Assembly (NCBI GenBank): GCA_021234155.1
Contig: JAJEKV010000145.1
Location: 372,001-436,000, forward strand
Source: Isoetes taiwanensis
Taxonomy: Eukaryota > Streptophyta > Lycopodiopsida > Isoetales > Isoetaceae
Length of the DNA: 64,000 nt
Direction of reading: 5' to 3'
The position numbers were made by a program, and so were the translations under genes. Numbering within the stretch: position 1 is the first letter of the stretch; each line of letters opens with the position of its first letter. Under the pieces are notes generated by a model. It was not told the origin of the DNA. It worked only from the letters and a program-made list of their open reading frames with translations, and did not search any database. Positions 1-59,178 of the stretch are shown in pieces.

Positions 1-1114
1 ATGTCATAGCTGTTATGGCTCCATTAAGGGCCATCCGATCACCATCGAAATTGGTCTAAATCCTCCATTTTCATAACAGGTGTTATGAAGTAGAAGTATG
101 TCATAGATGTTATGGCTCCATTAAAATCACTGATCAAGATTGATCTCAACCATTGGATCACTATAAAGTTGAGGGGGCGTGTGTTAAGGGTTGAAGGAAC
201 AATTGCATCAATTGCAAATTTCATGCAAAATTTCTGTGTTTTGTAAAGGACGAGGACAAATATATGTGTCCATGGCATCTCTAGCATAATTACAATGGCA
301 TAAGATAAGTTGTTGCCTCCTTTGACAAGCTGTTAAGTGAGGCTTTAGCTTAAGCTTCAAATTTTTTATCTTCGCAAGCATTCAACAAGTGAAATTCCAA
401 AGGTCCACTTCCATGAAAATACAAAGAGTGCTAAGGATAAAGAAGCATAAAGCATATAAAACTAAGGCCACAAAAAAACTGTGGATTCAAAAGACATGCA
501 AAGTACCATTCCATCCAATGTGTAGAATTATGAGTAATATCTTCTTCTCCAATTGAAAGATTGATATTCTAGATTCTCTCTCTCTCCCTCTCTCTCAAGA
601 ATACTGCCCCTCAAATTTGTTCACTTTGTTCACATATTCAAAGCTCGGGATAAAGGAGGTTTGTTCTGGTTGAAATTAAAAATTTTTGGTTTAGCTAGCC
701 ATTGTAGAAAAGATTTCAATAGATTTTATGCATATTCTTATAACGACAATACAATTTTTCGATTAAGAACTTGGAGATATTGGACTAGTTGAAGGAACAT
801 TAGGGAAAGTTCCAATTGGTCCCAACATTGGTGCTAAATATGCGAACAACACACGCAGTGGTTGGGTGCATCCAAGAAAGCATGTGTCTTGTCTATGTGT
901 GGTGATTAATATATTTAGCGTACACTTATTAGTCTAGGTATGCTCGCAGTTGCATGTTTAGACAATAAAAATTTATAAATTCCATGAAGAACAATATCTA
1001 AAGGATATGGCACATAAATAGGATACTATAGATGGGCAAAAAGTAGAAGAGGGCCATGCAAGATGCGTCTTTAGCATGATTTAAAGTTGCCGCCATATCA
1101 TTTATCAAGCCCTC
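1..1114. other. no gene recognised
   Basis: AT-rich stretch with many stops in all frames. It contains short simple repeats, such as a CT-rich run near 575-597, but no exon, RNA gene or mobile-element end that I can recognise. Confidence 0.5.
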
Positions 1115-1140
1115 GAGCACCAGCCACACTCCTATTTAAA
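1115..1140 (+). promoter_or_regulatory. upstream motif and TATA-like box of copy A
   Basis: GAGCACCAGCCAC (1115-1127) followed by TATTTAAA (1133-1140), about 65 bp before the ATG at 1205. The motif is a diverged form of the GCCAGAGCACTAGCCGC element found upstream of copies C and D of the same small-gene family. Function is inferred from its position and repeated occurrence only. Confidence 0.45.
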
Positions 1141-1204: not shown

Positions 1205-1515
1205 ATGGGCAAATTAGCAAGGCTTTTAGAATTGAACCGAATTGAATTGGCTTTTATCGTCTGTGAAGACCAATAAACCCCTAAGGGAACAAACAAAGAC
1301 CACAATAGATGTATTTTTAGAGCGATGCTTACATCTTTGCTTAAGAAGCAATTCTAAAAAAGCGGCTCAACTTTGTGCATTTTATCACATAAGAGAGGAA
1401 TGTTCTTGTTGCAATTCTTCATTGGGCAATTGCTTCCGCTATTTTAGGACAAGAATGCCAAAATGGCGCTCTAACAGAATTAGGCAGGATGATGAGTAGC
1501 ATTTTGGATAGGTAG
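1205..1515 (+). pseudogene. small CRCC-family protein, copy A, broken by an insertion
   Basis: Broken member of an unrecognised small-protein family with intact copies at 2326-2553, 17845-18069 and 19533-19751. It begins MGKLARLLE at 1205, and the flank around the ATG closely matches copy D (TAGAAATGGG). About 75 bp of foreign sequence then introduces a stop. The family frame resumes near 1303 with DVFLER, then LRSNSKKAAQL and FYHIREECSCC. A further shift precedes the C-terminal GALTEL and SSILDR, ending at TAG 1513-1515. The insert (roughly 1236-1300) resembles the reverse complement of the LINE 3' ends in this window: TTTTATCGTC, then GAAGACCAAT, beside a short AATTG/GAATT repeat. This copy cannot encode the family protein without repair, so I call it a pseudogene. 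Confidence 0.7.
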
Positions 1516-1529
1516 AGGCATTCCTGGCA

Positions 1530-2320
1530 CCAAAGTATAAAGGTTGCAAATTAGTGTTTCTGCAGAAAACGTACACAGGGGAGCTACTGCAGATCTCTAC
1601 GCAATATAGAAAAAAAGAACCTGGAATGGAGAGATATTGATAATGTGATATACGCAGATTTGGTTTCCAAAGGGTTACATCAACAAGATAGTTTTTTAAA
1701 ATTTTAAATTGATACCAACATGAACATAGGACCTAAAAGTAAAAATATACCAACTATTCACTTGTAGTTTGGAAGGGAGACTGGTTACATTAGTGTAGAT
1801 CCATTTGGGTTGTATTTCTTTGAAGAGATAAAAAAAAATCTTCATCTGTATAATCCTTCATGTTGCAATAAAACAAGTGTTAAACTGAAATAGTTTTCTT
1901 GTGGTCCTGAGCACATGTATCTAAGCTAGTACAAGTTGTGGACCCAAGTTACCCTTGTATGAGCACATTCCTCCACACAATTGATGCTTGTTCTTATCAA
2001 TTGGATGAGTGTAACAAAATGTGTGGTCAATATGCTATTGGATTGAATGCAAAATTAATAAGAAATACTTATCAATACCTTTCCTCCAAATTTCAAACTC
2101 TTCTATCACAATATTATGTGACTTGAAACCACCAAAGTCAAAACCTAGAAGACCTATGTTGCATTATAGAACATAATCAATCAATAGATTTAATGATAGG
2201 AAAAATGAATGTTATTATTTCAAAATATGTAACAGACAATCGCTTATTCCTGCTCCTTTTTCCACTGCTCTAAGATCGACAAGGGTCCGATTGGCCACAG
2301 CAATCAATAGAAGTAGAGTG
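1530..2320. other. intergenic, nothing recognised
   Basis: AT-rich spacer between copies A and B, which converge on it. No coding motif, RNA gene or transposon end was recognised. The short open frame at 1938-2126 has no family resemblance. Confidence 0.45.
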
Positions 2321-2325
2321 TGCTT

Positions 2326-2553
2326 CTACTTGTCTAAGATGCTGATGACCAACCAATCAGATTCGGTAAGCGCATTAATGTTGCTATGCTGCAGAATGGG
2401 AAGAAGAGGGGGTGGAGACGTTGATCTGCAACAACGACATTCGTCTCTCATCGCATAGAAAGCAGTGAGATGAGGCATTCGTCGAGGATTAGTTCTAAGT
2501 CTGGAAGAAGCAGTGCTAAATGCATCCTCCAGAACTATTGCCAATCGGCCCAT
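2326..2553 (-). CDS. small CRCC-family protein, copy B (75 aa, unknown function)
   Basis: Intact single-exon frame of 75 residues. The N-terminus is MGRLAIVLEDAF, the central block is FYAMRDECRCC, a Ser/Pro-rich linker follows, and the C-terminus is NALTESDWLVISILDK. The same three blocks occur in the same order in copies C and D, while the linker varies. No signal peptide or membrane segment is apparent. The basic N-terminal half and the paired cysteines (CRCC) could suggest metal or nucleic-acid contact, but that is speculation. I do not recognise the family. Conservation of both ends with a variable linker among three open copies argues for a real translated gene. A TATA-like box and the family upstream motif lie 70-105 bp before the start. 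Confidence 0.65.
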   Translation of the reverse strand: MGRLAIVLEDAFSTASSRLRTNPRRMPHLTAFYAMRDECRCCRSTSPPPLLPILQHSNINALTESDWLVISILDK

Positions 2554-2620
2554 TTTGGTTGAATCAGAGCAGCGACTTTACGAGCAAGAATAGGAATAAT
2601 TTGTGAAAGGCTAAGAGTGC

Positions 2621-2656
2621 AATAAATACGGGGAAGTGATGGCTAGTGATCTGGCG
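2621..2656 (-). promoter_or_regulatory. upstream motif and TATA-like box of copy B
   Basis: On the minus strand CGCCAGATCACTAGCCATC (around 2638-2656) precedes a TATTTATT box (around 2622-2629), with the ATG at 2553. The core CCAGAnCACTAGCC matches the element in front of copies C and D. Confidence 0.5.
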
Positions 2657-2659
2657 GCC

Positions 2660-3254
2660 CGAAGAGTATGGCGGTTGTTGGACATCTAGATCTGTTTTGC
2701 TTTTCGTTTTTTATTGACCTCGGACGGCCGCCATTATTTTCAACTTTCCATCATTCTTCTAAAAACCCACGTTTCAACAATATCATAATATATCATAAAT
2801 TACTTTGGATGCCCCATGGAATAGATATCTATATATTCAAATCGATCTAGGCCATTTATCATAAATGCCACGAGGTGGCAAAGCTGCAATCCTTGAACCT
2901 CTAATGGGCGCTGCAATCCTTGAACCTCTAATGGGCATGCATGGGGCATGAACCCCATCTTTGAACGGTTGGATCGGGGAAGGTGCCTTCGAAATAAAGG
3001 TAGACTTATTTCATATAATAAATTAAATCAATCTCAAGCAGTTGCTTAGGGATGGCGAGGTGGCACACCTTTGACTGTCAATGGTGCACCGAAAGTGGCA
3101 ACAAGGGAAAGTTCATTAATTAAAGAAGTTGCAAGGAAAGTTCTAAAAAGAAGGAAGTTGTCATTTATGTCGTCATTTATTAAAGTTTACTGTTATCTTC
3201 CTAAGGAAAGTAGCAAAGATTTTAAAGCTAAGGTAAGGTTATCGGACTGGCCGA
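2660..3254. other. no gene recognised
   Basis: Short open frames at 2668-2850 and 3071-3277 show no recognisable domain. A short direct repeat, CTGCAATCCTTGAACCTCTA, occurs twice between 2884 and 2932. Confidence 0.4.
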
Positions 3255-3320
3255 GGCTGATAACTAAAAATGCGTGACCAATGCTGTACGTCCGAGGCCA
3301 CACATTTTTGGTTATCAGCC
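3255..3320. repeat. 22-bp inverted repeat (hairpin)
   Basis: Arms at 3255-3276 and 3299-3320 are near-perfect reverse complements (core GGCTGATAACTAAAAAT / ATTTTTGGTTATCAGCC) around a 22-bp loop. The phrase TTATCGGACT or TTATCGGGCT recurs near 3239, 3341 and 3413, so a small fold-back element may cover about 3237-3425. No target duplication was established. Confidence 0.5.
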
Positions 3321-3429
3321 GAGGCAAAGACTAATAACCACCTTATCGGGCTGATATCTTATTATCTCCTAGTACTGATAATTAGTTACCACTCCTAGGA
3401 GTGATAACTTAATTATCGGACTCTTGGGT

Positions 3430-4560
3430 ACTCCAAGATTTAGAAGCGAATGCTCATTGGCCATGACTAACTACACCAAAGCTACCATTTGTGTTCCACG
3501 GGTCGTCAATGGCACTAATCTTCCTCTGGAATATGCATTAGGGTTTTTACAAGCGGCAATCCATTCCTTTGCATTGTCGTGATGCGGCTATAGATGCTTG
3601 GAATTTGTGGACTGCTTAGAGTAGTAGCTGTCATGCAACAATTTTCTCCTTTTAGGGTCTTTCCTGTATTTTTTACTCGAAATGCATGGACATAAGGTAT
3701 GTTAATTCTCAAAGCAAATTCAGCAAATTCAGATTCGTTGGAGGATTGCTTAAACTTCTGTCTCCAAGAATGATTGAAATTTTGTGTTTCTAGTAAATGG
3801 GTGTATTAATCACAAGGTTTTTCTTCCAGCACAAGTGAATCAAACGTTTCGTATATACATTTGCACTACGCCGAGCATAAGCACGTGAATTGCTTACCTC
3901 CGGGGAAGGCAAGCAGACAGTTACGGAAAACTTCTTAAGACCTTGTGAATTGTAAAAAAAGCCACATCTCAGGCTAATGTAGTACAGAATAGGGCAGAAG
4001 AATATAAAGAGGATGCCTTAGTTTCATCACCATCTTCCTGTTATTCTGTGTGTTTTTTTAGCTCATACCACTTTCTCTTCTTCTTTTTTCCTCCTTGGAA
4101 AGGATTGCTTATACATGTCCGTTTGAGATCTCCCATTAAGCTAAATCCATGTCTACGAAAGGGTTGAAACAAAAGAAGGTTGATGTAAGATGTTTCGTTG
4201 AAGTTCTCAACACCTTCATGGAAATAAGCACCGTACCTACCTTGTGGAGAAGGTAGAGTTCTATATGATCATATTTTTCTATCTTAGTATCATTTTGAGT
4301 ACATAAAATAAGCTCTTTCAAGTTATTATTACGTGAATGCACCAAGTTATTGCAGCAAAACACCATAGATCATTGTAGCATATAATCGTTTCACATAATA
4401 TTCCTTGACAGTTTGAAAAGCATTAAAACAAAGTAACTATTAACTTAGAAAGTGGCAGGGCCGATGTAGTTTCTTTTCCTACACTGAATGCAAGGACAAA
4501 TGTGACAAGAAGCTTCAGTATGTCTATAATCCAGGACATTCAAACAATCTCGCACGAGGA
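3430..4560. other. no gene recognised
   Basis: No supported exon or mobile-element end. The short open frames here have no domain signature. Confidence 0.4.
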
Positions 4561-4565
4561 GATTA

Positions 4566-5680
4566 AGAATAGAATAGAATAGAATAAGATTTTTTAGCGT
4601 CCACGGAGACCGATTGGCCTATGGGACCCAAACAAAAAGAGAGCAGCAAGCGTATTACTGACAGGATTAAAAAACCCCTGCCCCAAAGGGTTTTCGAGGG
4701 AAAAACCTTAGCAGTAATAAGTATGCTGGCACGCTGTACAATTATATAGGACAGTTCAATACCGTCCCGGAGGACACAACTAAGTCCGTGCATCCATAAC
4801 TTTCTGGAGATATGACCCCAACAAACCCACTGACGCCGTATTCAATAACTAACGGTTGGCCAGGCACTAGTAATCGAACATATCGCTCTCGGATATGGGC
4901 AACGCTGGGCAGATCTGGAGGGCATGACATTCATCCTCAATGGCACCTTGGTGGTAACACTGGCAAAGCCTTTGCTCTCGTGCTTCCCGAGCCCAACGTC
5001 CTGTCTCAATGCGGAGGCGGTGTGCACCGGTGCGAATGAAAGCTATAAGTCTGCGCGTCTACATGGGCAATTGGGTGTACAAGTACTGGTGTGGGCCTCT
5101 CGTGAGCCTAGGATTGACTTGTCACGATAGTGTGCCGCCTTTAACGCGTCGAGCATCCGCATCCCGTGAGCTTGCGAAAGAAAGTAGCATCTAAGTACAG
5201 CTTAAGTGCCTTGTGATCTTTCTTTGTCCTTACATTTACGCATTTGTTTGCCTGTACACCCCAGCGTGAGAATCACTGAGCTTTCTTGTCCTTCCAGCAG
5301 GCTTTCAGACGTTGGGGACGCATCGCCGTGGCCAAAGCAAGGTTGGACAAACGCGTATCACCCATAGCGACCACCTTCTGGAAGTAAATGATATGGCGTT
5401 CCAATGCAGCCCGTTGAAGGGGTAGAAAACCTGTCTCCTGGAGTATGATCTGGTATGGAACTGTAGACTTTACCCCAAAGGCTCGTGCCAAGAAGGCTTT
5501 TCGGCACCTGCTCGAGGTCATTCCAGGTGTTGAGGGATATCACCGGACCCCACACTTCTGCCCCATACAAAAGGACCGGCTCGACCAAGGCCCGAAACAA
5601 GTGGGACTGGTGGCCCCAGGCATACAACTCTGCCTTGTGGCTGTTGTTCTGCATGGCATATAGTGCTTTCCAACCCCCAG
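4566..5680 (-). mobile_element. 5'-truncated LINE, (TTCTA)n 3' end
   Basis: Minus-strand LINE fragment. Its 3' tail is the AGAAT-repeat run at 4566-4586 (TTCTA repeats on the coding strand). It is preceded by the terminal block with the elements TTGG...CTCCGTGGACG and by a C/G-rich hairpin near 4667-4709, both shared with the copies at 6041, 12968 and 31185. Coding remnants at 5273-5654 match the post-RT region of the larger element at 26.5-31.2 kb, for example LVEPVLLYGAEVWG, TWNDLEQ and ERHIIYF, but in shifted frames. Further downstream is a Cys/His-type C-terminal region (AIEDECHAL). The 5' end is lost at about 5680, where similarity to the larger element stops. It is not functional. Confidence 0.75.
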
Positions 5681-5694
5681 GGAATGTTCAAAAA

Positions 5695-5945
5695 TCGGTC
5701 ATATGAAAATTGTGACTATAATGCAGCACGAACAGGAGCTGGAATTGCTGTAAGAAAGTTGGAATGTGTTGTTGGAATGAGTTTCGTCAACTATAATATC
5801 CTATTTGATGCTTATGGGGGGGGCATGCAACATTCAGGAAATCGAACAAATAATCGAGAAAATGAAGAGTGAAACTTTGAAGGCTGACTCTGTCATGGTA
5901 GATGGGGTTGTAAGCATATTCTTGAATATTCTAATCTACTGACGG
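5695..5945 (+). pseudogene. pentatricopeptide-repeat (PPR) protein fragment
   Basis: A coding-looking stretch reads FVNYNILFDAYG and then, after a run of seven Gs that shifts the frame, NIQEIEQIIEKMKSETLKAD and SVMVDGVVSIF. The spacing and residues (YN.L.DAYG, then EEMKS..L.AD) fit the 35-residue PPR helix pair of plant organellar RNA-binding proteins. Only one to two repeats are visible, with no start codon and no continuation on either side. It therefore looks like a broken or captured fragment beside a truncated LINE. The family assignment rests on the motif pattern alone. Confidence 0.45.
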
Positions 5946-6040
5946 AAGAGATTTGCTAATACTAATAAAGGAAATGCCTTAAAGTGTAATATAACGATTT
6001 TAAGATTTTGTCTAGAATAGGATCCAATTATTGTTTAATT

Positions 6041-6235
6041 AAGAATAGAATAGAATAGAATAGAATAGAATAGAATAGAATAGAATAGAATAGAATAGAA
6101 TTTTTATCGTCCATGGAGACCAATTGGCCTATGGGACCCAACAAGAGGCGCAGCAAGCGTATTACTACTCGGGTTAAAAGACTCCCTCCCCGCCCTAAAG
6201 GGTTGTTTGGGGGAAAAATTGTGACAAGAATAGGC
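6041..6235 (-). mobile_element. LINE 3'-end fragment with long pentamer tail
   Basis: About twelve AGAAT units (6041-6100) followed by TTTTTATCGTCC, then GAGACCAATTGGCC, is the reverse complement of the LINE 3' terminus found at 13.6 and 31.2 kb. The G/C-rich hairpin block is also present (about 6176-6215). Only the last ~135 bp of the element remain. Confidence 0.75.
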
Positions 6236-6889
6236 TTACTGTCAAACCGTGACCCGGGTTAAGATATGAATGTATGCCTCAATTAAGTTTTCCATAAAAC
6301 TCAACTTAGAGCATTCGCTACTAGTCATATTAATGGTTTTACTATCATTATTTTCTCATAAGATGTCATGACAAAAATCCTACATGGCTATTTCTTTGCT
6401 AATTCATGTAATAATCATCAATTTTTTGTCCTACTTTCCTTTAGACTAGATTCACAGTCATCAAATTAAAAATAGCAACCATGCACGAACCTCAGGGGCA
6501 ATTCACTAGTCAACACAAAATAGCAAGTTCAAACGATAACCAGCAAGGTAGTTAATGTTGGTACTCTTGGCCCCAGCCATACACTAATTGCAACTCCTGA
6601 AAAATGAAGATTAAAAATAGTAACTGCAAAAATAACTAGTTTACTAATAGCACTTTGGAAGCGCCACCCAATCTATAGGGATGGTGTAATCCGAATATAA
6701 GAAATTGTGCCACCCATCCATGTTGAGAATTTAGCTTAAAACTTCATGACTTTTGACTAGATGCACATTCCCATTTGTGCGACAGGACAACTGAGAAGGT
6801 AAAATCCCAAACAAGATTTGCATTGAAGACACTAATACTTCACCATGTGATGACCTGAAGTCTTCTAATAAATTTTAAGGAAAGAAGAT
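6236..6889. other. no gene recognised
   Basis: AT-rich sequence without a recognised exon, RNA or transposon end. Confidence 0.4.
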
Positions 6890-6976
6890 ATGGATCCCTT
6901 GAATCAGTTCCTTGAGAGCAGATTCTCTTTGAAGGAAAATTATGGCAAAGAAATGGGATTATTACAGGAAACAAAG
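6890..6976 (+). pseudogene. exon-like start of an unrecognised protein
   Basis: ATG at 6890 opens MDPLNQFLESRFSLKENYG followed by KEMGLLQETK, ending at a possible donor AAAG|GTTGAG. It sits about 200 bp before an array of repeated exon-like units whose peptide (LYAKLVHEAEINLM...) has a similar amphipathic, coiled-coil-like composition. It may be the first exon of the gene that supplied those units. No family was recognised and no complete model can be built. Confidence 0.25.
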
Positions 6977-7187
6977 GTTGAGATATACAATGGAAGCATA
7001 GGTCAAATGGCAGGACCTTAAACTCCCACGCTCAAGGTCATGGGTTCAAGTATGGCCAACATCGGTCTAGTAATATGGACCTTAAAAATTCATTGCCCCG
7101 AGGTTACGGATTCAAGTATGACCAATTGATTTTGTGGCAGAGATCTTAAACCTGCCATATATACTAGATAATCACATGCAAAGCAGC

Positions 7188-8172
7188 TTTTATGCTAAGC
7201 TGGTCCATGAGGCCGAGATAAACTTAATGGCAAGGTTACAGGAATAATCAGAAGATGGATCCTCCTACTAGTTCCTGTCTGTGGTATCACAACTAGATAG
7301 TGGATTGGTTTCCATATAATATGTAGCATGCCGGTCTGTGGTATCACAGCTAGATAGTGGATTGGTTTCCATATAATATGTAGCATGGGGAAGAGAGGAC
7401 TCTTTATGCTAAGCTGGTCATGAGGTCGAGATAAACTTAATGGCAAAGTTACAGGAATATCAGAAGATGGATAAAATTGACAGAAGTGCCATGAAATTTG
7501 AGCACTTAAAATGGAAGGTAGAAGATGCCATTGAGTAGAAGGGCTCCTACCAGTTCCTGTGGTATCGCAACTACTAGATAATCACATGCAAAGCAGCTCC
7601 TACTAGTTCCTGTGGTATCGCAGCTAGATAGTGGATTGATTTTCATATAATATGTAGCATGGGGAACAGAGGACTCTTTATGCTAAGTTGGTCCATGAGA
7701 CCGAGATAAACTTAATGGCAAGGTTACAGGAATATCAGAAGATGGATGAAATTGACGGAAGTGCCATGAAATTTGAGCACTTAAAATGGAAGGTAGAAGA
7801 TGCCATTGAGTAGAAGGGCTCCTACCAGTTCCTGTGGTATCGCAGCTAGGTAGTGGATTGGACCGGCCATATGTACTAGACAATCACATGCAAAGCAGCT
7901 CCTACTAGTTCTTGTGGTATCGCAACTAGATAGTGGATTGGTTTCCATATGATATGTAGCATGGGGAAGAGAGGACTCTTTATGCTAAGCTGGTCCATGA
8001 GGTCGAGGTAAACTTAATGGCAATATTATAGGAATATTAGAAAATGGATGAAATTGACGAAAGTGCCATGAAATTTGAGCACTTAAAATGGAAGGTAGAA
8101 GATGCCATTGAGTAGAAGGGCTCCTACCAGTTCCTGCGGTATTGCAGCTAGGTAGTGGATTGGTTTCCATAT
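7188..8172 (+). repeat. tandem array of four exon-like units
   Basis: Units begin near 7188, 7398, 7672 and 7974, each with the phrase TTTATGCTAAG then TGGTCCATGAG. The last two are about 302 bp apart. The better units are open as LYAKLVHEAEINLMARLQEY, QKMDEIDGSAMKFEHL, KWKVEDAIE, stop, which looks like the helical C-terminal exon of a protein. The rest of each unit is a non-coding phrase with CTCCTACCAGTTCCTG and GGTTTCCATAT. The first unit lacks the later half and the fourth is cut at 8172 by a CACTA terminus. Other copies read through the same point as CCATATAATATG or CCATATGATATG. The host gene is not recognised. Confidence 0.6.
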
Positions 8173-8282
8173 CACTATAAGAGAAGGGGTCCATTAGTGT
8201 CACCAAAACGTCACCACAATATTGAAAAGTGTACAACATTTTTTTAGAAGTGATGCGACAGGTGCCACATTTTGTGTCACCT

Positions 8283-8640
8283 ATAGCCTGACTCTTTATG
8301 TCACCAACAATGTCAGTAACTTGGTTATGATGCTATAGATGTTGCTATTAGCATCAGCGTCACCAGTTGTTGTACATATAGCATCAATGTTAGTGTCAGT
8401 GCCCACTAGTGACGTTATAGGTAGTGTTATTAGCATCATATATAGTGTCAGTAATTGTCACATGTATAACATCAGTCTTAGTGTCATTGTCCATCAGTGA
8501 CGTTATAAGTGTTGTTATTAGCATCAAATATAGTGTCAGTAGTTGCTACACATATAACATCAGTGTTAATGTCAGGACCCACTGGTGACATTATAGGTGG
8601 TGTTATTAGCATCAAATATAATAGCACCTTTAGTATCACA
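8283..8640. repeat. CACTA subterminal repeats, 81-89 bp period
   Basis: The phrase TATTAGCATCA recurs at about 8346, 8427, 8515 and 8604. Each is followed by TATAACATCAGT-like and GTGACGTTATAGGT-like phrases. Reiterated subterminal motifs are characteristic of En/Spm elements, where they bind the element's regulatory protein. That role is inferred here. Confidence 0.65.
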
Positions 8641-8996
8641 CGTTTTGTCATAGCTGAGGCAAACTGGAACGATCGTTGAACTGGTTTTTATTGGCTTTGT
8701 TAAAGATTCAGCATTTTAGACAATCTACCTTATCTTTATTACTTATTGTACCATTCATAAGTACATAATCTTATTTGCTTCAACATTATAAATAATGTTA
8801 AAATATCAATAGTTGTGTTCATATCGCCTTTGATGTTAGCACTTGATTCATCATGAAAAGTCAATAAAACTATATAGTATTACATTAAGTCACTAAGATT
8901 GCATCACAAATACAAAAACACATTAATGATTACCATTAAAGATGGAATAGGCCATCATTAATATAGATAGGAACATACATGACCATTTGAAAAAAA

Positions 8997-9720
8997 TTAT
9001 ACAGTCAAACTTACAAGTGATTCCTCATCCCTTATATCTTGCTCAATATCCTCTAACTCATCATCACCAAGTTGTAGTTGCAGTAGATGTTGAGGCACAC
9101 TTTCAACTTCAACGTTCTCGTCAACGGCATAGTCCATGACAACATGATGCGATGATTGCATTAACAAAGATAACACATCATTCCCAATTGGACCGTGATT
9201 ATCTTCATATTGAGCCTGTGTGTCAACCTTGTATTCTGGAATACCTATTTCATCATAGGTTACATCATCAGTCAAGTGTAGGAGGAGGTGTCTGGTTGGC
9301 TTCCTCAAAAGATTCATCATGCAAAGTTAATGGATCAATCATACGACGAGATGTAGGGGTCGCATGAACCACAATCCACCAATCATTATCTTTCTGGTTC
9401 TTATGGAAGAAAACATGTTCAACTTGCCTTGGAAAAACAAAAGGCTCATCCATATCTCTCAAAAATTGAGTGGAGTTCACCTCATAAAAACCTGAAGGAC
9501 GTTGCCTCATTGTACGATTTCTTCCTCGATAAGATGCTTTGAACCACTTTGCCTTCAAAACATTCATTTTGAAGGAACGAAAATCAACTTCAATAATGTC
9601 TGTTATTTGAGCAACGTAATTGAGATCACTATCTACTGGTTGGTTGTCTTTGATAGAAGCTCAAAACATGCTGCAATGCCACAATCATATGTAACCCTGC
9701 CCTTGTCAATGCTCGCAACA
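8997..9720 (-). pseudogene. CACTA transposase C-terminal part (DUF4216-like)
   Basis: The frame at 9567-9268 reads MNVLKAKWFKASYRGRN, GFYEVNST, EPFVFPRQVEHVFFHKNQ and DWWIVVHATP. This matches the DUF4216 pattern that follows DUF4218 in plant CACTA transposases (alternating aromatic and acidic positions, then W.vV). An adjoining upstream stretch (about 9720-9633) with FRVASIDKGRVTYDCGIAA belongs to the same region in another frame. An acidic tail (VDENVEVESV, DDELEDIEQD) follows at 9320-8997. Frame changes between these pieces mean either introns I cannot place or decay. The function would be transposition of the surrounding element. Confidence 0.65.
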
Positions 9721-9919
9721 CGAAAATGTTGGTTGTATGCCCACATGGATGTGTGGAATCTTGTCTGCAATGCACATGTATTATCAACATGATCAACAAT
9801 AAAGATAACAAACTTAATGCAAACAATTGAATATATCTTTCTTGAACATCCAATTGCTACATTATAGGCATCTGGACAAATTTCAATGCCCTTCTCTTGC
9901 TCCTCTTCCATCTGACATA

Positions 9920-10480
9920 TTAACCACTCACTTGACATGATGTTAACTTCTCAGACACACTTGTGACCTTTGAATGTTTTCCATGACGAGATCGTTTTGC
10001 AAGGACTTGGTGTCTTCTATCATCCTCATCATTTTTTTGTGCAATCTCATACTTTTCTCGCCATTTATCTAAGCTATCACAATTTGCCATCACAAACTTG
10101 TTTATCTGTAAATACATCTCATCATCAAGTCTGCATTCTACCCCAAGGCCTTCAAGAACTTCTCCTATATCCTCCATATGTTGCTCTTATATATGTGGAG
10201 CATCCTCTTGTATTGATGTGGTGGCATCAGTCATGAAGAAAAGGATCTCCTGCACCAAATGCCCTTCTGCCATACATCCTTCTAGTCTAGCCATTTGACG
10301 AACAAAACCCTTTAAAACTTTCATATATTGTTCGAAAAAGAACATCCAACGTCCAGGAGCTGGTCCAACCAAATGAATCTCCTCTGGAAGATGTATTAAA
10401 AGATGCACTTGAAGATCAAAGAAGCTGGTAGGAACATCTCGCTCTAAGATGCATAATAACTCAATAACTTCAATCTCCAT
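9920..10480 (-). pseudogene. CACTA transposase middle part (DUF4218-like)
   Basis: 10480-10187 encodes FFDLQVHLLIHLPEEIHLVG, then GRWMFFFEQYMKVLKGFV and EGCMAEGHLVQEILFF. This is the hallmark order of DUF4218 (FFD..HLpiHLp.E, RWMyp.Er.mk.lK..v.n...pEgsiae.y...E...F). The next frame, 10177-9920, carries YLQINKFVMANCDSL, equivalent to the hyYvL.N...v segment, and then a basic stretch. It is part of the same element as the Tnp2 core upstream. Confidence 0.7.
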
Positions 10481-10820
10481 CTTTGATATATCAGAAGCAT
10501 TAATTCACCTACGATGCATAAATTGATATTAATACAATTTTACATACGAATTAAAAAACCATAGATTTTATACCTTGCAAAGTTTTCTAGTCGATAAATG
10601 ATATCCCGTATTTTTGGTGTCAAGCGATTATCTATAGTGCATGGTAGAACATGCTAAAATGAAAGGCAAATCTTGGTATCAGAAGATTATTTATCATGCA
10701 TTGCCGAATATGGTAAAGCAAGCTCTAAAGCAAATGCATGTAATTACTAATATGGTAAAGCAATGCGGATGTATATAATTACTAAATGCAGTTGATTTGA
10801 AATGTATCTACGAAAGGAAT

Positions 10821-11607
10821 TCAAATACCTACTTGTAGAAACTTGTGCCAATCATGTGTCTTCAATCCCTTAAGCTCACCGTCTTTGGTGAATGCCTTAC
10901 GTAAAGATGCACCATAACCCGTGGGTGTTCTCATACTAGATATTACTTGTTTGACTTGCTTCTCCTCCTTTTTGGTTAGTACCCAAGGTGCACTTTTGCG
11001 CTTTCGCCTATTTTGTGGTGCCCATAATTGGGGCATTATATTTTGATCATTCACTGAGTCGCTTCTACTAGCCAGAGTATCACAATCACCAATTATGTGT
11101 CTCCATAGCGAGTGGCCAACATTTTTAAAGATGTGAATGGGATCGAGCAGATGTGCAATTTTTAGTTCTGACCATTGAAAAGAGTTAGAAGATATGTGTT
11201 GCCAGTGCATATATATTGTACTTAAATTGAGATTGATATATACCTGGAACAATAAGAGTCAACATGAGGTGCCCTGCCTTTGTTGCCATCCAGAGAGGGA
11301 TGTTATAATTCACCACCACAACAGGCCACACACTATGACTTGAGGATATATGACCAAATGGGCAAACTCCATCTAAGCCAATGGCAAGACGCAAGTTTCT
11401 TGGTTCTGTTTTGAACATGGGCCACTTGTCCTCGATATGTTTCATTGCTTCACCATCAACTGCCAGTCTTAAAATTCCATCTGTGCTCTGTTGCTTTGAA
11501 TGGAACTCCATAAGTGCACTAAGTGATGGGCATCGAAACACCCTTTGCAACCTTGGTATCAATGGCATATGACGCAAGACCTTCCTTGGGACTCCAACAG
11601 TTTTCAT
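10821..11607 (-). pseudogene. CACTA Tnp2-type transposase core
   Basis: 11607-11185 contains VPRKVLRHMPLIPRLQRVF, GILRLAVDGEAMKHIE, RNLRLAIGLDGVCPFG, SVWPVVVVNYNIPLWM and LMLTLIVPGIYQ. This is the signature series of plant transposase_21/Tnp2 proteins. After an apparent intron or frame change, 11252-10821 continues with LKIAHLLDPIHIFKNVGHSL, then a basic segment (NRRKRKSAPW) and LKGLKTHDWHKFLQ, also typical of the family. The N-terminal zinc-finger-like CPKCN lies in a different frame near 11625-11640 and is followed by loss of similarity. Probably defective. Confidence 0.75.
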
Positions 11608-11639
11608 CTTAACATCACTCGTTACATTTTGGGCAAGTA

Positions 11640-11810
11640 GAAGGGCAAGAGAGGCCGAGATCTAGGTGAGTTTAGCAAAGACGTCGAAGGAACAGAAGAA
11701 GATGTAGATTTTGAAATTGATCAATTGTCCTCAAGTCAGAAGGCAATTGAGAAGGGAAATATGAAACATTATGGAGTTGAGGAAGTTCATGGATCATTCC
11801 TTAGTCTTTA
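11640..11810 (+). other. open coding-like stretch, unrecognised
   Basis: The plus frame reads KGKRGRDLGEFSKDVEG, TEEDVDFEIDQLSSSQKAI, EKGNMKHYGVEEVHGSF and then a stop. The acidic, low-bias composition looks like exon sequence abutting the broken end of the CACTA element. No start codon, splice partner or family could be identified. Confidence 0.25.
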
Positions 11811-11969
11811 GTTTGCAGCTCCTCCTCTTTCTATGGTTTCAGTTGTAGAGTATGAAACATCATGTTAATTCATGTACATGATTCATGTGCATGATGTACA
11901 ATGCTACCAGGCAATGTTGAGGAGTTAGATCATGCACTAAGGAAATAGGTCAAGTAGATTAGATCGTAT

Positions 11970-12550
11970 CAGTGTTGTTTAAGTACCCGTACACTATGAT
12001 TTTGTATTTATAGTACCTTGGGTAGTGTACAGTACGTCTAGTACCTCTAAAGTGTAGGGTAAAAAAAAAGTTTTTTTTTATGAATTTAAATCATATCCTC
12101 AAGACAATTTTGTGCCTCCCTAATGTCTAATGTCAATTTCAAGGCTAAAAAAACTCTAATTGTATGTTTCTAGCTCTTGTAGTGTTCGACAAAGAGCAGG
12201 TAAAATTTTTGTGCTTATATTTCTTTGCTTTAGTACTAATTTCAATCCATTTACATGAACTTCTTATTGTGGGTTCTTATTTGACCAGCCAGATCTCTTA
12301 ATCAACTCCTTATAATTCAGATCTTATAGAAAATCCTCAAAAAATCTAACCTCAAGTGCAAATTTGCAAAATTTGCATAAAGAACTTTATATTTTTCCCC
12401 TACGTAACGTACTGTACGTACTACACATAAAATAGAACAGCACATGGCAAACGTACATAACGTACTAAAAAACTCTAAAGTACATAAAAGGTACAGTACC
12501 TTGGAAGACGTACTGTACAAGTACTGTACACTAAGTACGTGACAACACTA
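11970..12550. mobile_element. non-autonomous hAT-like element with 8-bp TSD
   Basis: 581 bp flanked by GATCGTAT at 11962-11969 and 12551-12558; the duplication extends to 9 bp if AGATCGTAT is counted. Ends are CAGTGTTGT and ACAACACTA, near-perfect terminal inverted repeats of the CAGNG type used by hAT elements. The subterminal parts are mutually complementary and dense in GTAC and GTACGT palindromes. No transposase frame is present, so it must have been mobilised in trans. A 9-bp reading would instead suggest a Mutator-like element, but the terminal sequence favours hAT. Confidence 0.75.
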
Positions 12551-12967
12551 GATCGTATAAATAGCTAGTATATATATGAACAAGTATGTGGTCCTCAGAC
12601 TAGGGATATTTTGATAACAAAATGAAAGATCAATAAGCAATTACTAACTTGTGTTGATGGCTGCATTCATGGATGTATGATAAAGGTAATGATTTTTGGG
12701 TTACAACTAGTCATAACTTGTGTCCCTAATGATTTGAACATGATGATGCATGTGCGCGCCTGATGGGAGCCTTCTGCTTGCTTGCTTTGGTGGACAAGGG
12801 TATCTGCTAATTAATTAAGTGGTGGACTAGTCACATTGGAATAGCTTGGGGCTAAGCTTGTTTGATTGTTCATATTTCATTTATAGCAGCTTAATGTTTG
12901 TTGATTAGGACAGCCTCAGCCTCAGACCGCCACAGCCTTAGATAGCACCTTGATACATGCTTCCTCA

Positions 12968-13594
12968 TAAAGCTATGGGATGCCAGCACCCTTGAACAGG
13001 TCAAGACAGCACATTACCAACGCCATATAAATCCCATGCTGAAGCAGGGCCCGCAACCTGCACACCCATCTACCCATGGAAAAGCGCAGATCCATTATCT
13101 CTATCTGCACAGGTGCACATCATCTCTGGGTTGAGACAGGGAGATGGATTGGGGAGCCGGGTTAGGAGAGGCTTTGTCGACACTGCCAAGTTGGAGCTAT
13201 GGAAGATGAATGCCACACCCTTCAGAGTTGTCCGGCATACGATGAAATTTGAACACGCTATGCTGAGCTGGTCCGGCCTGGCCAGCACTTGCATGAGATG
13301 TTGAGCATAGCCTCGGTGCAGATGCTAGGATCATACTTTCAAGAGGTCATGGATCGCCCGAATCAGCTCGGCCCTCGGGCACTCGCCTGATATGTGTACA
13401 TATTTTCTTCCCCTCATGATAGATGTCTATACAGTTTGACAACACTCTTATTCCTGTCACGGTTTTTCCCCCGAAAACCCTTCCGGACGGGGTTTCTCTT
13501 AACCTGGACAGTAATACATTTGCTGCACCTCCTTTTTGGGCCATAGGCTGATTGGTCTCCATGGACAGTAAAAACTCTATTCTATTCTATTCTT
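12968..13594 (+). mobile_element. 5'-truncated LINE, (TTCTA)n 3' end
   Basis: Collinear with the end of the element at 26.5-31.2 kb from about 12968 (AGCTATGGGATGCC versus AGCTTTGGGATACA) through the Cys/His C-terminal coding region, the C/G-rich 3' UTR hairpin (about 13461-13495) and the terminal block CATAGGCTGATTGGTCTCC (about 13546-13564). It ends in a TTCTA-repeat tail at 13576-13594. The coding frame is interrupted. Confidence 0.75.
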
Positions 13595-13599
13595 GATTT

Positions 13600-14289
13600 T
13601 GCACAGTCGCCTCCAAGTTGGATTCAAGTTAACAATTATTACATGCTATGGTTGTTAGGCTACCTACTTGCAAATGAGTTCATCAAGCTGTTAACGAGTA
13701 AAATTAGCAAATGCAGGTATTTTACTTGATAAGACAATTGTACACACAAAGCAACAATGATTTTTTTCTTTTCTTTTTGAATGAATAAGAATTCTATTAT
13801 ATTAAGTAAAAATTCCATTACTATGTAGCAAGTAGACACCCCCCTGCTCAAGCTTGAAGTGGGGTAGCTATAGAGTCAACCTACAACGTTATATATGGTG
13901 GTGAGAATCTCAAGCCTCTAGAGTTTGATGAAAGCACCCCAGACCACCTCCTTCTGGGTAGCCTCACAGCCGTGCATATATTTGAATTTTCTTAAACAAC
14001 TCTCAAGAGCATTCACTAATTGTGTGCATGAGGTGTATTTTTCACGGAAGACGATTGCTCTCCTTCTTTTCCATATAATCCATAAAGTCCATGCTCTGGG
14101 TATTTGAAAGGCAGTGCATTTAGAGTGTACCCTTATAGTGTACCCACCCTACTGCACAATCCAACAATGTGATAGTGAAGAAATCATTAAGAAGCATATT
14201 CATATATTCATGTTCCAGCCCATTTCTTCAATTGAAATTCATAGGAACCCCCAACATATGCTAGATCTTCTTTGAATAAAGAAACTTTA
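13600..14289. other. no gene recognised
   Basis: AT-rich spacer between the LINE fragment and the ribosomal-protein gene. The open frame at 13925-14107 has no recognisable domain. Confidence 0.4.
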
Positions 14290-14413
14290 CATTTTATTTC
14301 GGGGCAGGAAAAAGCGTACCAGCCAGCCGCATGTGCCGATTTTGAGGAGATTTCATCCTCTGTTTTTCGGTGCCTGGATAGGTTCGGCCTGTAGAAGTGT
14401 GATCAGAGATCCG
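14290..14413 (+). other. probable 5' UTR exon of the uS8 gene
   Basis: A GC-richer stretch with CCAGCCAGCCGCATGTGCCG ends at a canonical donor, GATCCG|GTAAGC. The intron would run 14414-15704 and rejoin two bases before the ATG at 15707. Plant RPS15a genes commonly have an intron immediately before the start codon. The 5' boundary is approximate. Confidence 0.4.
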
Positions 14414-14464
14414 GTAAGCTCCTAGGACATTGTTTTCCGATTTCTTGAAATCGTTTATCATTCG

Positions 14465-14481
14465 TTTAGGGTTTAGGGTTT
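14465..14481 (+). promoter_or_regulatory. telo-box-like motif
   Basis: TTTAGGGTTTAGGGTTT near the start of the leader intron contains the telo-box (AAACCCTAA on the other strand), typical of plant ribosomal-protein and other translation genes. This supports the identity of the downstream gene. Confidence 0.6.
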
Positions 14482-14857
14482 AAGGTGCCGGAATGAAGTC
14501 GTTTACCATTAGTTTAAGATTCATGTTGCCGGATTGAAGCTGCTTTGGCATAAGCATCTATGCGGTAGTAGGTCAAAGGTCTGAAAATGCTTTGTGGTGT
14601 AGCCAATGCAACGTGCCGGGTTTAAGCATTTGTGCAAAACGTTTAGCATAAGCATCTCTGCAAAACATTTTAGCATTAGAAATGAAAGCCAATCCACGTA
14701 ATTTTCCCCCGGCTACTGAATAGAAACTGTGCATTTCTGTTGAAGAAGATTGAGCTTGTGTTCCAGAATTTCAAAGTTTAATGCTTCTCTTGTAAGCTGC
14801 ATACTTAAGGTTTAGCTTTTTTTTGTTGTATGAACAGTAAATAACGAATACGCATCG

Positions 14858-15048
14858 TATGCCTTTGCTGCGTAGTAGCCATCAGATTGAAGTTTTGGAA
14901 ATGCCCTGTACTCTAGCAAATGCACCCATTGTATCTGGTATTTTTTACCATCACTATGTCTTTGCCGCAGAGCCATCAGATTGCAGTTTTGGAAATGCCC
15001 TGTAGTCTAGCCAATGCACTTATTGGATTTGTTTTTTTACCATCACTA
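14858..15048 (+). repeat. ~95-bp tandem duplication in leader intron
   Basis: Two diverged copies each carry GCCATCAGATTG, GTTTTGGAAATGCCCTGTA and TTTACCATCACTA, one starting near 14858 and the second near 14956. No coding significance is evident. Confidence 0.55.
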
Positions 15049-15706
15049 ATACCCGCAGCACATAATTGTTCTAATTCGTCCATAACTTCATACACCGCCC
15101 TTACCAGCAATGTCTATACTTTCAAACTTCCAAATTCCTATTTCTTGAAATTTGCTATAGGTTCCATAGTGTAGCTTCGCATGTGCATCTTTAGCAAAAT
15201 TGGATGCGTTTGCTCATATAAGAGGATGATTTTGATAAAGAATCCCTTAGCTCATTGTTTTAGAGGAATTATTTTAATTAGCACCATGAAAATAGTGACA
15301 GCAATCGGCTTCTTGCATTTACCATGCCTATAACAGCGCCATCCAAGATTGCCTCTTTGAAGAATGTTGGTTAATGGGCCTTTAAAAGTAAAAAATTTCT
15401 GGCCTACTTTTTTTTTTCGTTTGTTCAAGTCTGGTCTGCATCAGTTTGTTTTTACTTATAAGGAAATCCTCCTTTTCAAACAAATGAGTATGCCAAGGAG
15501 GGCTTTGCAACTCAACCAATCTGTTGGTCGACATTAATATTTTACATTATATGAGTGTGGCAACTAGTTATCAAACATATGATAACAGCTTATGACAGGA
15601 ATAGAACCGATTCCTGAAAGATATACATTAACTACAGTATTGGGAGGATGGATCTGTGGCTGATTCCAATCTAAACGTTAATGTGTGGCATATATACAGT
15701 GCAGAG

Positions 15707-16240
15707 ATGACTCGGCTTAGTTCCATTAATGGTGCAATAATGCGCAGGAGATGTGAAGCAGTTGTGAAGCCATCATCAGTTTTGCTACTTGAATTTCTGA
15801 AAGTTATGCAAAAGCATGGTGGGCCTATATTTAGTGCATATTGATGGTTTAAAGCTTATCTTTGACTTCAAAATATTTAAATGTCGCTGTGGCTAAATCT
15901 GTAGGCTTTGTGGGGAAGTTTCAGTCATTTGATGGCCATGGAGGTGGAAGAGTGGAGATTGAATTAGCTAGCAAGCTTAAGAAATGTGGGTTCTTTAGCT
16001 ACAGGCATCACACTACAGCTAAAAATATTCCATTTTGGACAGAACGCCTTCTCTCACCCCGCCAAGTTCCGCGGCAGGTTGGCAATTTCAGTTTGTTTTT
16101 TATTTCCTTATGAGTTATATCATGCAATAATTGTTTTGCAGGTTGGTTATCTTGTGATGACAACATCATCTGGGCTCATGGACCATCATGAAGCTCAGGA
16201 GCGTAACATAGGAGGTGCATTTGTTGGGTTCTTTTGCTAA
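15707..16240 (+). CDS. ribosomal protein uS8 (RPS15a-type), divergent, 3 coding exons
   Basis: Small-subunit ribosomal protein of the uS8 family. Exons: 15707-15818, 15905-16065, 16142-16240; about 123 aa against 130 for typical RPS15a. Seen: KPSSVLLLEFLKVMQKHG joined to FVGKFQSFDGHGGGRVEIEL, then CGFFSYRH, PFWTERLLSPRQ and VGYLVMTTSSGLMDHHEAQE, ending IGGAFVGFFC. All match the family pattern (MQKHGYIGEF, WTARLLPSRQFGYIVLTTS, MDHEEA, GGKVLGFF). The exon 2 donor is ambiguous: 16065 restores family spacing, while GCAG|GT at 16077 adds VPRQ in frame. About eight residues seem missing after MTRL, and several conserved basic residues near the C-terminus differ. It may be a divergent, possibly organellar, paralogue or an early pseudogene, although the frame is open throughout. 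Confidence 0.7.
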
Positions 16241-16259
16241 TATCTCTTTATAGAGGGAC

Positions 16260-17840
16260 TACACCAGGGCCTCTGATTATTCTCCATGTACTTGTCCAGT
16301 CTAAGGAAATTGTTACTCGCGTGCTTTTGTCATTACTATGAAGCTCATTTTTTATGATCCATCAATGTGACCTTTATTCATCTTAGAAGACAGGTTGCTT
16401 ATTGACGCGGTTATTGTGTATCCCGTTAAAGACCACATAGGAAGATTTTTGCAGCATCTGAATAATATTAAGGTTCAGATACAACAAAACCTGATCACAT
16501 TGAAGTATTTAGGATAGAAAGGAAATGTAGACTTAAATTTGCTCTAACTGCACCATGTATGTATAGTTAGTGACCTGTAGCAATCTGCAAGTAGAGCTGA
16601 GGTGTATGTTACAAAGGCAAAGGTTGCAAGAACTATTGCTCCTTCCATCCATCCTAGTTGAGCCATGCTCCCTGCTCTCAGGGCCAATTACCAGTGTTAT
16701 GCATTGGTTATGGCAGTTCTCTGCAAAATGTGTGAATGCAATTCTAATCAAAGGTATGCTATGGTCAAAATTGCACATACACATTCCATCTCGTCATGAA
16801 GTCCATGACAGAGAGACTTCTAGGAGGAGGAGGAGGATGGTTTATAATCACATCTGTAGTACTTAATGTATATCTAAGAAGAATTGCGCAAAGACTTCAT
16901 AAAGGTGACAAATTTATGCATGTACAAACGCTATATGAACTTATGATCAACATATCAAAAAGAACTCGAAGAACCCAAGCTGTACTGAGCATGAAAAACA
17001 AGGACTTTTAATCAACATATCAAAAAAACCCGAAGAACCCAAACTGTACAGGCATGAAAAACAAGTCCTCCTACGGGACTGTCACATAATGTAAAAAACT
17101 TGGGCTCAATATCTCTACGCCAGTAGACATTGCTCCTTGCATGCATCTTCCCACCCACTCTGAATCTGTAAAAAAGACTGGTTGCTCCTTGCATGCATCT
17201 TCCCACCCACTCTGAATCTGTAAAAAAGACTGGTTGTAAGATGGCCGCCTTGTTTATTTATGTTGCATTCATTGCACAATCTATCTGGATAAAAGAAGTC
17301 TCTTTTATTATTATAGCTTTTTTTTATCTTCTCCATATTTGTAGTTCAAACGGGTCCAGTTTTATATATGATACCTGTTCATACATTTGTAAAGCTGCAT
17401 TGAGAGCAGAGAAATCTAGACAAAGCAGGCAAATATGCAGGTTGTTTTGCACACTGGATCACAATTTCTCTTTCAGAATGCTATTTTGCAAACACAAAAA
17501 TCAGTAATTTGCAGCATATCATATCTTTATTACTCGATGAATATTTATGTCTATGTGCCTCCAAAGGCTAAGCATACAGATGAAGAAAACAACAAGTATG
17601 GAACAAGAGATATTACTTTCACTTTGCATTATAACAAAAACTGAACAATTTGTCTTCACTTTGTACAAGTGCTGAGGAGGCTTTCAAAATTGAGAAGCTC
17701 AACTTCTATTTACAAATATTAGACTCAAATTGAGCATCTCCTTCTCTTGATTTTCGAGATTTAATCTGAAGCAACCACAACAGCACTGATTTGCAGCTGG
17801 ATTATACCTTCCCACATTGGATATTTAATCTTCTTTGGGA
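16260..17840. other. no gene recognised; 52-bp tandem duplication at 17130-17234
   Basis: Downstream of the uS8 gene. The only clear structure is a perfect or near-perfect 52-bp tandem duplication (17130-17181, 17182-17233) containing GCATGCATCTTCCCACCC. Just before it, at about 16950-17075, is a diverged duplication with AATCAACATATCAAAAA. The open frames here are by-products of the repeats. Confidence 0.5.
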
Positions 17841-17844
17841 TTTT

Positions 17845-18069
17845 TTACCTGTCCAAAATGCTTATCACCATCAAGTCTGACTCTGTTAGGGCATTATTTT
17901 TTTGAATTTGAACTGCAGAAGCAGCAGCTGCGGATGAAGAAGTGCAACAGCGGCATTCCTCTCTCATCTGATAAAACGCAGAAAGCTGAGCCATTCTTTG
18001 AGGATTGCTTCTTAACCTGCTAGAAGCAGTGGTGAATGCATCCTCTAAAACTCTTGACAATCTACCCAT
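17845..18069 (-). CDS. small CRCC-family protein, copy C (74 aa, unknown function)
   Basis: Intact frame of 74 residues. It begins MGRLSRVLEDAFTTASSRLR, continues SNPQRMAQLSAFYQMREECR-CC, then an Ala/Ser-rich linker, and ends NNALTESDLMVISILDR. It matches copy B and especially copy D across the N-terminal arm, the FYQMREECRCC core and the C-terminal ALT.SD.MVISILDR block. The linker (residues about 43-57) is the variable part. It is soluble by appearance, without signal peptide or membrane helix. Copy D lies about 1.46 kb away in divergent orientation, with a Tourist-like MITE between them. The upstream motif and a TATATATA box precede it by about 105-145 bp. Function unknown. Confidence 0.7.
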   Translation of the reverse strand: MGRLSRVLEDAFTTASSRLRSNPQRMAQLSAFYQMREECRCCTSSSAAAASAVQIQKNNALTESDLMVISILDR

Positions 18070-18173
18070 ATTCTGATCAAATGCAAGCCTATAATTCAGA
18101 ACTTAAATCGAAGGTGCAGAAGTGCAAACTTTTTGTGCGAAGATTCGAATGCTGAAATAATCTGCGCGAGGGG

Positions 18174-18216
18174 GCATATATATAGAAGGCCAAGAAGTTG
18201 CGGCTAGTGCTCTGGC
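18174..18216 (-). promoter_or_regulatory. upstream motif and TATA box of copy C
   Basis: GCCAGAGCACTAGCCGC on the minus strand (18216-18200), then a TATATATA box near 18183-18176. The same 17 bases occur unchanged upstream of copy D. The start codon is at 18069, giving a conventional TATA-to-ATG distance of about 110 bp. Confidence 0.6.
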
Positions 18217-18300
18217 AGCAATGTGGCGGCCAGTCTTTTTTTCCACATTTGTTGTGGCCGGGCCCATTTTTTTCAAATATAATAAGATAGATAGTATTTA

Positions 18301-18709
18301 GGGTGATTTTCTACTGTAGTCGTAAAATATGACGGTCACATTGAGATATGACACCTTTTATGACTCCAAATCAAAAAATACGACACATATAATTGAAGCT
18401 GTTTTTCTACTATAAGGTGTCATAAAATAAGACACCATCAAAATGCAAATGGAAAATCATCAAAAAATAAGACATGTCTTATTTTAATGATATTTTTAAT
18501 ATATGTGACACTGTCTTATTTTATACCGGGGGAAATCCCCCGGTATAAAATAAGACTCCATTCTCCTTAAAAGGAGGAACCGAACCTATCCAAGCCTAAA
18601 TAGGACATGTCTTATTTTTAATAGTAGAAAACCAATTTTTCTTTTTTTGCTTATGTGGCCCAATAGAAATGACTAAAATATAAGACACCACTCTAGTGGA
18701 AAATCACCC
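18301..18709. mobile_element. Tourist-like MITE, TTA target duplication
   Basis: 409 bp bounded by TTA at 18298-18300 and 18710-18712. Terminal inverted repeats are GGGTGATTTTCTACT and AGTGGAAAATCACCC. A TTA/TAA duplication with GG-starting ends is typical of PIF/Harbinger-derived Tourist MITEs. Internally there is a perfect 21-bp palindrome arm pair at 18513-18533 and 18536-18556 (core TTATACCGGGGGA), plus several ATAAGACA-type inverted repeats, so a transcript would fold tightly. No coding content. Confidence 0.8.
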
Positions 18710-19397
18710 TTAAACGGCTTAAATAATGGATGATAAAATCCCATTCAATTCAATTCGGTTTTTTACTCAAATATATATAAGTCTGTAAAATTATGTTTAT
18801 CCAACTATTCGTGAATAAAGTGCATTTCCACTATAACATTTCATTTAGGTACATCTTTCATCTTAAATACCTCACTCTATTTGTGATATGGATTTCTAGG
18901 TTTTTTTTTTTTTTTCCACATCCGTGGTCTTCTTGTTTCATATCTGGGTGGCTAGAATAATTTGCCAAATTTTGTGAATTTAGGATTTGAATCCCAAGCA
19001 CAGAAGTAACTTGTGGAAAAAGAAGGTTAGAATATATTAGTACAGTGCGGCTGGTACTCTTGCGGCTCGGCATGAGAATAATATATGGATATGGAGACGA
19101 TTTGGATGTGGGACATCCATTATTTTATGCCATTTATTCTTGTCTTGTTTAGAATACCACTTTGTTTTCTTCTTAAAGATTTGTCTTCGTTCCCTAGAAT
19201 AGCATATATAGAATACAAATTGGTCTTCCTATCTACTAAAGGCAACAACTCATATATAGGACCACAATAGTACCACATACAAAAGACAAAATATACATAA
19301 GATTTGATGTCCCACACATCTGGGCATTTGTTTATTTGAGGTCTAAAATCCTATGGATAGATAGAACAAAATCAGCCTCCAATATATATGTTGAACT

Positions 19398-19414
19398 GCC
19401 AGAGCACTAGCCGC
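19398..19414 (+). promoter_or_regulatory. upstream motif of copy D
   Basis: GCCAGAGCACTAGCCGC, identical over 17 bases to the element upstream of copy C, about 120 bp before the ATG at 19533. A CT-rich run (CTTCTCTCTCTCTAG) follows. No strong TATA box is obvious here. Confidence 0.55.
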
Positions 19415-19532
19415 CTTCTCTCTCTCTAGCTTTCTCCATTTCAACACCTTCACATTACTTACATAAAGCATTGCACTTTGGCGCTTCCTATTCAAATTTT
19501 ACATACTCAAAAGTTTGCATTTGATCATAGAA

Positions 19533-19751
19533 ATGGGTCGATTGGCAAGAGTTTTTAAGGATTCATTAGCTACGGCATCTAGTCGATTAAAAAGCAATCC
19601 TCAAGAGCTGGCTCAACTTTCTACCTTTTATCAGATGAGAGAAGAATGTCGTTGTTGTAGTTCTTTATCTTCTGTTATTGAGAATCAGGAATATAAACAG
19701 GGTGCTCTAACAAAATCAGATTGGATGGTCATTAGCATTTTGGACAGATAG
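19533..19751 (+). CDS. small CRCC-family protein, copy D (72 aa, unknown function)
   Basis: Intact frame of 72 residues: MGRLARVFKDSLATASSRLK, SNPQELAQLSTFYQMREEC, RCCSSLSSVIENQEYKQG and ALTKSDWMVISILDR. I chose the ATG at 19533 because the family consensus starts MGRL. The in-frame ATG at 19515 would add six residues absent from the other copies. The 5' flank (TTTGCATTTGATCATAGAAA) closely matches that of broken copy A, so A and D look like the nearest relatives by flank. Three open copies with conserved ends and a tolerant linker argue for purifying selection. Family and role are unknown to me. Confidence 0.7.
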   Translation: MGRLARVFKDSLATASSRLKSNPQELAQLSTFYQMREECRCCSSLSSVIENQEYKQGALTKSDWMVISILDR

Positions 19752-20423: not shown

Positions 20424-20637
20424 TATTAAATATATGGTAATATATTGATATGAAGCAGGAAGAGCCCCTGCCGTGGCTTACAGAAGATAAGATAATAGAA
20501 TTGAATGAAAACGGTTTTGAGGTTAAGCGTAGGCATGCCGTTTCCATCTAGCAGTCATGTCTGTTGAGGATGTGGCGTCTTCGGCATCGTCTGACTCAGC
20601 AGGGCTGCCAGCAGGACAGCCGAACACCTCTCCAACA
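20424..20637 (-). repeat. copia 3' LTR
   Basis: 214 bp, starting TGTTGGAG at 20637 on the minus strand and ending TTTAATA. It is preceded by a short purine-rich tract (CAAGTGGGAG) as a candidate polypurine tract. It matches the 5' LTR with a few differences. Confidence 0.85.
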
Positions 20638-20639
20638 CT

Positions 20640-25650: not shown

Positions 25651-25658
25651 AGCATGCT

Positions 25659-56941: not shown

Positions 56942-59178
<2,237 letters not shown>

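Follow-up and report, generated by a model that had tools for sequence, protein, structure and literature searches.

Small-protein families restricted to a single plant lineage are a known kind. Such orphan families are short, arise as tandem duplicates, have no recognised domain and carry a stress-type promoter core, and the family described here is similar to them in these respects. It also has points in common with three other known systems. The genes controlled by AP2/ERF factors through a GCC-box have a GCCGCC core near the TATA box, as this family does. The AIM/LIR (ATG8-interacting) proteins have an acidic residue followed by W-x-x-I, which most of our copies have at the C-terminus, and plant metallothioneins are equally small and have a C-x-C-C group. 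Small plant proteins are easily overlooked by annotation.

Results

The window, meaning the whole stretch of 64,000 nucleotides that was analysed (G000:C958:372001-436000), belongs to a genome of 1.66 Gb in 1110 contigs. The initial annotation had placed three open copies and one broken copy of a small-protein gene near its start. At these positions B, C and D were indeed intact and carried the described motifs, A was decayed, and the strands, previously unstated, could be added:

1089-1139, plus strand: remnant promoter module of A (GCCGCCATATCAT, GAGCACCAGCC, TATTTAA), with GCCGCC at 1089
1205-1516, plus strand: copy A, decayed pseudogene with frame changes, stops and an extra stretch of ~80-100 nt near the start
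2326-2553, minus strand: copy B, intact 75-aa ORF, MGRLAIVLEDAFSTASSRLRTNPRRMPHLTAFYAMRDECRCC...NALTESDWLVISILDK, stop
2622-2658, minus strand: promoter module of B, GCCGCCAGATCACTAGCC then TATTTAT
17845-18069, minus strand: copy C, intact 74-aa ORF, MGRLSRV...FYQMREECRCC...ALTESDLMVISILDR, stop; L replaces W in the SDW position
18178-18230, minus strand: promoter module of C (GCCGCC, CTGCCAGAGCACTAGCCGC, TATATAT)
19383-19415, plus strand: promoter module of D (TATATAT, CTGCCAGAGCACTAGCCGCC), with a 19-nt exact inverted match to the module of C
19533-19751, plus strand: copy D, intact 72-aa ORF, head to head with C, MGRLARV...FYQMREECRCC...ALTKSDWMVISILDR, stop

D and B share 68% and 65% identity with C, respectively. 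When the 1.66 Gb genome was searched in six frames with C as the query, B was retrieved at an E-value of 3.5e-22 and D at 1.2e-22, far beyond chance. In copy A, MGKLAR, FYHIREECSCC and ALTELGRMMSSILD each lie in a different frame, the ~80-100 extra nucleotides follow the first codons, and the allele (C667:246031) is decayed too. The allele of B on the same contig is identical in protein and CDS, in surrounding DNA that is 95% identical between haplotypes.

Between C and D lies a MITE-like element (~18264-18717, repeat body ~18298-18713) with the ends TTTAGGGTGATTTTC and GAAAATCACCCTTAA and a perfect inner palindrome at 18513-18556. This site is empty on C667, and 40 places out of 966 candidates were scored in the genome search for the element. 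On the minus strand at 20523-25670, the ORF list contains, by eye, fragments of a Copia-like polyprotein (20.5-24.4 kb) and part of a Harbinger-like transposase (24.8-25.7 kb). Minus-strand exons at 56942-59025 resemble, by eye, acetyl-CoA acetyltransferase.

Genome-wide protein searches placed A-D at the end of a cluster on C958 (217,876-391,748) with 11 intact copies, and found 10 intact copies on C667. We treated these contigs as allelic because the order and flanks of the copies correspond, the aligned flanks being mostly 88-96% identical. One copy, L014 (C958:337839), has no counterpart on C667 and is a haplotype copy-number difference; CRCC is replaced by CCCC in this copy, and its promoter module is lost. 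Most of the cluster falls into two clades, MGRL...ALTxSDWMVISILDR and MSRL...AFTxSDWMLISSLDR. A further paralog, L028/L031, starts with MAAL and has kept the C-terminal motif and an open frame without CRCC. More distant members occur outside the cluster on C512/C928 and C1032, with head-to-head pairs among them too, and decayed ones elsewhere. Altogether, the family proteins are 67-96 aa long, and A-D represent a real family of small plant proteins of roughly 75 aa.

The three motifs that the initial annotation regarded as shared held to different extents. The MGRL start is common to B, C and D, but genome-wide MSRL, MAAL and MSRV also occur. The CRCC core is nearly invariant, except for the two lineages named above. 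The C-terminal motif is present in the open copies, apart from an L for the W of SDW in copy C and the three-exon copies described below.

As a side observation, the assembly contains two different open RbcL sequences, L032 (C1052) and L033 (C840), both ending in FETIDTL, an ending known from seed-free plants; the host is a land plant and probably a seed-free one. The one in a large contig may be plastid DNA in the nucleus, and for the other a plastid or contaminant origin is possible.

In the MGRL/MGRV-type copies on C512, C928 and C1032, the frame seems to stop after GSDW. The same GSDW codon is split in phase 2 by a GT...AG intron of 81-145 nt, and predicted splicing restores the C-terminal motif exactly, as TVIGILDK or LVISILDR followed by a stop. 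A third subfamily has three predicted exons with an intron of 60-63 nt at the same codon, giving LTLSDLTILSILNMF and LTLTDLIVLSILD, each before a stop. These intron-bearing structures are gene models predicted from sequence alone. The cluster copies are without the intron that splits the codon before the C-terminal motif. An intron common to distant subfamilies is most simply ancestral, which would mean that it was lost in the cluster. Recombination with cDNA, or a deletion, would be a likelier route of loss than a retrocopy landing elsewhere, because the promoter module, too, is retained in the cluster.

Under a GY94-type codon model (F3x4, one omega, FastTree topology), the overall omega was 0.31, far from neutrality, and a value of 1 was rejected (2dlnL 94.7). 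Selection is purifying. The earlier suggestion of selection on both protein ends with a freer linker was borne out, omega being 0.11 for the C-terminal 16 codons, 0.24 for the N-terminus and core, and 0.59 for the linker (2dlnL 4.8). The branches to B (0.28), C (0.29) and D (0.23) each have an omega below 1, and the stems of n_L020, n_L022 and L028 are indistinguishable from 1. Between alleles, 20 synonymous and 16 non-synonymous differences correspond to a pN/pS of 0.22 (Fisher p 6e-6). DNA homology between B and seven cluster copies (C, D, L003, L005, L009, L012, L019) covers the ORF and little else, beginning at most 3 nt from the ATG and ending within ~7 nt of the stop; some close paralogs, for example L003-L005 and L009-L012, have more flank in common.

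Upstream alignment revealed a module of CCGCC(A/T) boxes and GGCCGCCRGAGCACYAGCCGC, along with TATTTATA or TATATAT. Most copies keep GCCGCC plus GAGCACYAGCCGC near the TATA box, a combination almost absent from the rest of the genome, and nearly all have their own TATA-like box. The GAGCACYAGCCGC half is not known to correspond to a named element. At up to 2 mismatches, the 21-nt element occurs nine times in 1.66 Gb, eight of them at family copies, and the head-to-head copies C and D have 19 nt of it exactly in common. Of 11 lineages, 10 have GCCGCC no more than 200 bp from the start, compared with 4-6% of random 200-bp windows. Some modules are incomplete: the MSRL clade is without the GAGCAC half, and L028 has only ACCGCCAT and a TATA box. 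In copy D the sole TATA-like box precedes the element rather than following it. The presence of this promoter in several lineages is retention, not a series of independent gains, and selection appears to have kept it and both protein ends almost unchanged. The full AGCCGCC, the sequence bound by ERFs (PMC3585223), is present in D, the L012/L011 pair and the n_L022 group, and most copies have GGCCGCC or ACCGCC. Control of the family by ERFs is only a guess, because most copies carry the GCCGCC core alone.

AlphaFold2 models built from 18 or 24 paralogs placed helices at residues ~3-14, 23-36 and 63-73 with low confidence (mean pLDDT 60, pTM 0.2-0.3). In seven of the eight copies examined, the amphipathicity of the N-terminal helix exceeds that of ~95% or more of shuffled sequences; it is weakest in B. 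The C-terminal segment is hydrophobic and, as a helix, not clearly amphipathic. Because the N-terminus is a charged amphipathic helix, apparently without the hydrophobic core of a signal peptide, as judged by eye, a secreted peptide seems unlikely.

No Pfam match rose above the gathering cut-off (best CRF1, 17.7 vs 25 bits, and DUF4298, 15.8 vs 27), the PDB sequence search gave no match (best E 0.71), and the prokaryotic and viral collections held no relatives. Rfam had no match within the window, and nothing on the family was found in the literature. The 19-residue C-terminal sequence, used alone as a query, retrieved family members only, which indicates that no recognisable larger protein has the motif in common with them. 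The family, not recognised in the initial annotation, appears undescribed as far as Pfam, PDB and the prokaryotic and viral collections go.

Discussion

Our preferred explanation, with a probability of roughly 40%, is that A-D are members of a real and undescribed family of small intracellular proteins of intron-bearing origin, which expanded as a cluster and would act as stress-inducible, disordered adaptors. The ancestral gene would have lost one intron before its local expansion. Through the GCCGCC core, the genes could be targeted by ERF-type factors and thereby induced under stress or upon wounding. The product would be a mostly disordered intracellular adaptor with two conserved contact sites, a reading favoured by the low-confidence helices, the amphipathic N-terminus and the hydrophobic C-terminus. 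One site would comprise the N-terminal helix (residues 3-14) together with the helix that runs into CRCC, and the other would be the C-terminal [LF]T-x-[ST]-D-[WL]-x-[VIL]-[IL]-[SG]-[IS]-L-[DN], a putative motif by which a partner protein would be docked. Between the two, the serine-rich linker would act as a spacer only. Several observations speak against this explanation: the low AlphaFold2 confidence, the full AGCCGCC box in some copies only, the loss of CRCC in L028 with the C-terminal motif kept, and the stems whose omega is indistinguishable from 1.

The conserved ends could also be read differently. If the C-terminal SDWxxI were an ATG8-interacting motif, the protein would be a small autophagy adaptor or receptor. 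W-x-x-I directly follows an acidic residue in nearly all copies, and B, L028, n_L020 and n_L022 satisfy the strict xLIR pattern. However, D, L005 and L012 fail this pattern despite their WxxI core, the L in the W position of copy C and the three-exon copies means that the aromatic core is not conserved, and motifs this short often arise by chance, which makes this role quite improbable. The CRCC cysteines might also be the functional part, either by metal or redox binding or by palmitoylation as a membrane anchor. This is unlikely: CRCC is nearly invariant, and CRCCQKH and further histidines are added in the three-exon copies, yet a monomer with three cysteines has too few of them for a normal metal site, L028/L031 dispense with CRCC while keeping the C-terminal motif and open frame, and L014 has CCCC. 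The paralog that lost CRCC and kept the C-terminal motif weakens a purely metal-binding role in particular, which the initial annotation had offered alongside a peptide and an inhibitor.

Two further readings question whether the ORFs encode an independent protein at all. The transposon-rich surroundings, with the Copia- and Harbinger-like fragments, would fit ORFs that are part of a transposon or arose by chance. The copies, however, sit at few loci and mostly in one cluster, a dispersal unlike that of a transposon, whereas a true dispersed repeat nearby gives hundreds of candidate matches genome-wide. Together with the omega of 0.31, the conserved intron and promoter, and no Pfam transposase match, this placement refutes the idea, to which we give next to no credence. 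The small size, conservation and short leaders of the ORFs might instead suggest conserved upstream ORFs regulating a downstream gene. Since the nucleotide homology of B with the other cluster copies breaks off at the stop codon, they have no downstream ORF in common, and with nearly every copy having its own TATA-like box, we count this very improbable reading as refuted.

Tentatively, and at the same less than even odds as the adaptor reading, the family may be an undescribed regulatory small-protein family of land plants with its own C-terminal docking motif and promoter element, in which intron loss and local duplication would have produced a cluster of variable copy number. The sequence support is unusually complete, including coding conservation under purifying selection, an intron position held in common by distant paralogs, homology bounded by the ORF and a conserved, family-specific promoter module. 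Furthermore, the two protein ends provide short motifs that lend themselves to testing. Should the family prove stress-inducible and dock to a conserved partner, it would add a new regulator to a plant lineage in which few genes have been studied.

Among known systems, the family would be a well-supported new case of a lineage-restricted small plant protein family. It differs from other orphan families in that its distant paralogs retain an ancestral intron position and a family-specific promoter element, and in that selection is strongest at both protein ends. Unlike the GCC-box genes, most copies carry GGCCGCC or ACCGCC in place of AGCCGCC. The difference from AIM/LIR proteins is the replacement of W by L in copy C and the three-exon copies. 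Metallothioneins have many cysteines in repeated C-x-C groups, whereas this family has three, and none of CRCC in L028, so that a metallothionein identity was rejected; the remaining protein is also dissimilar and has no Pfam match.
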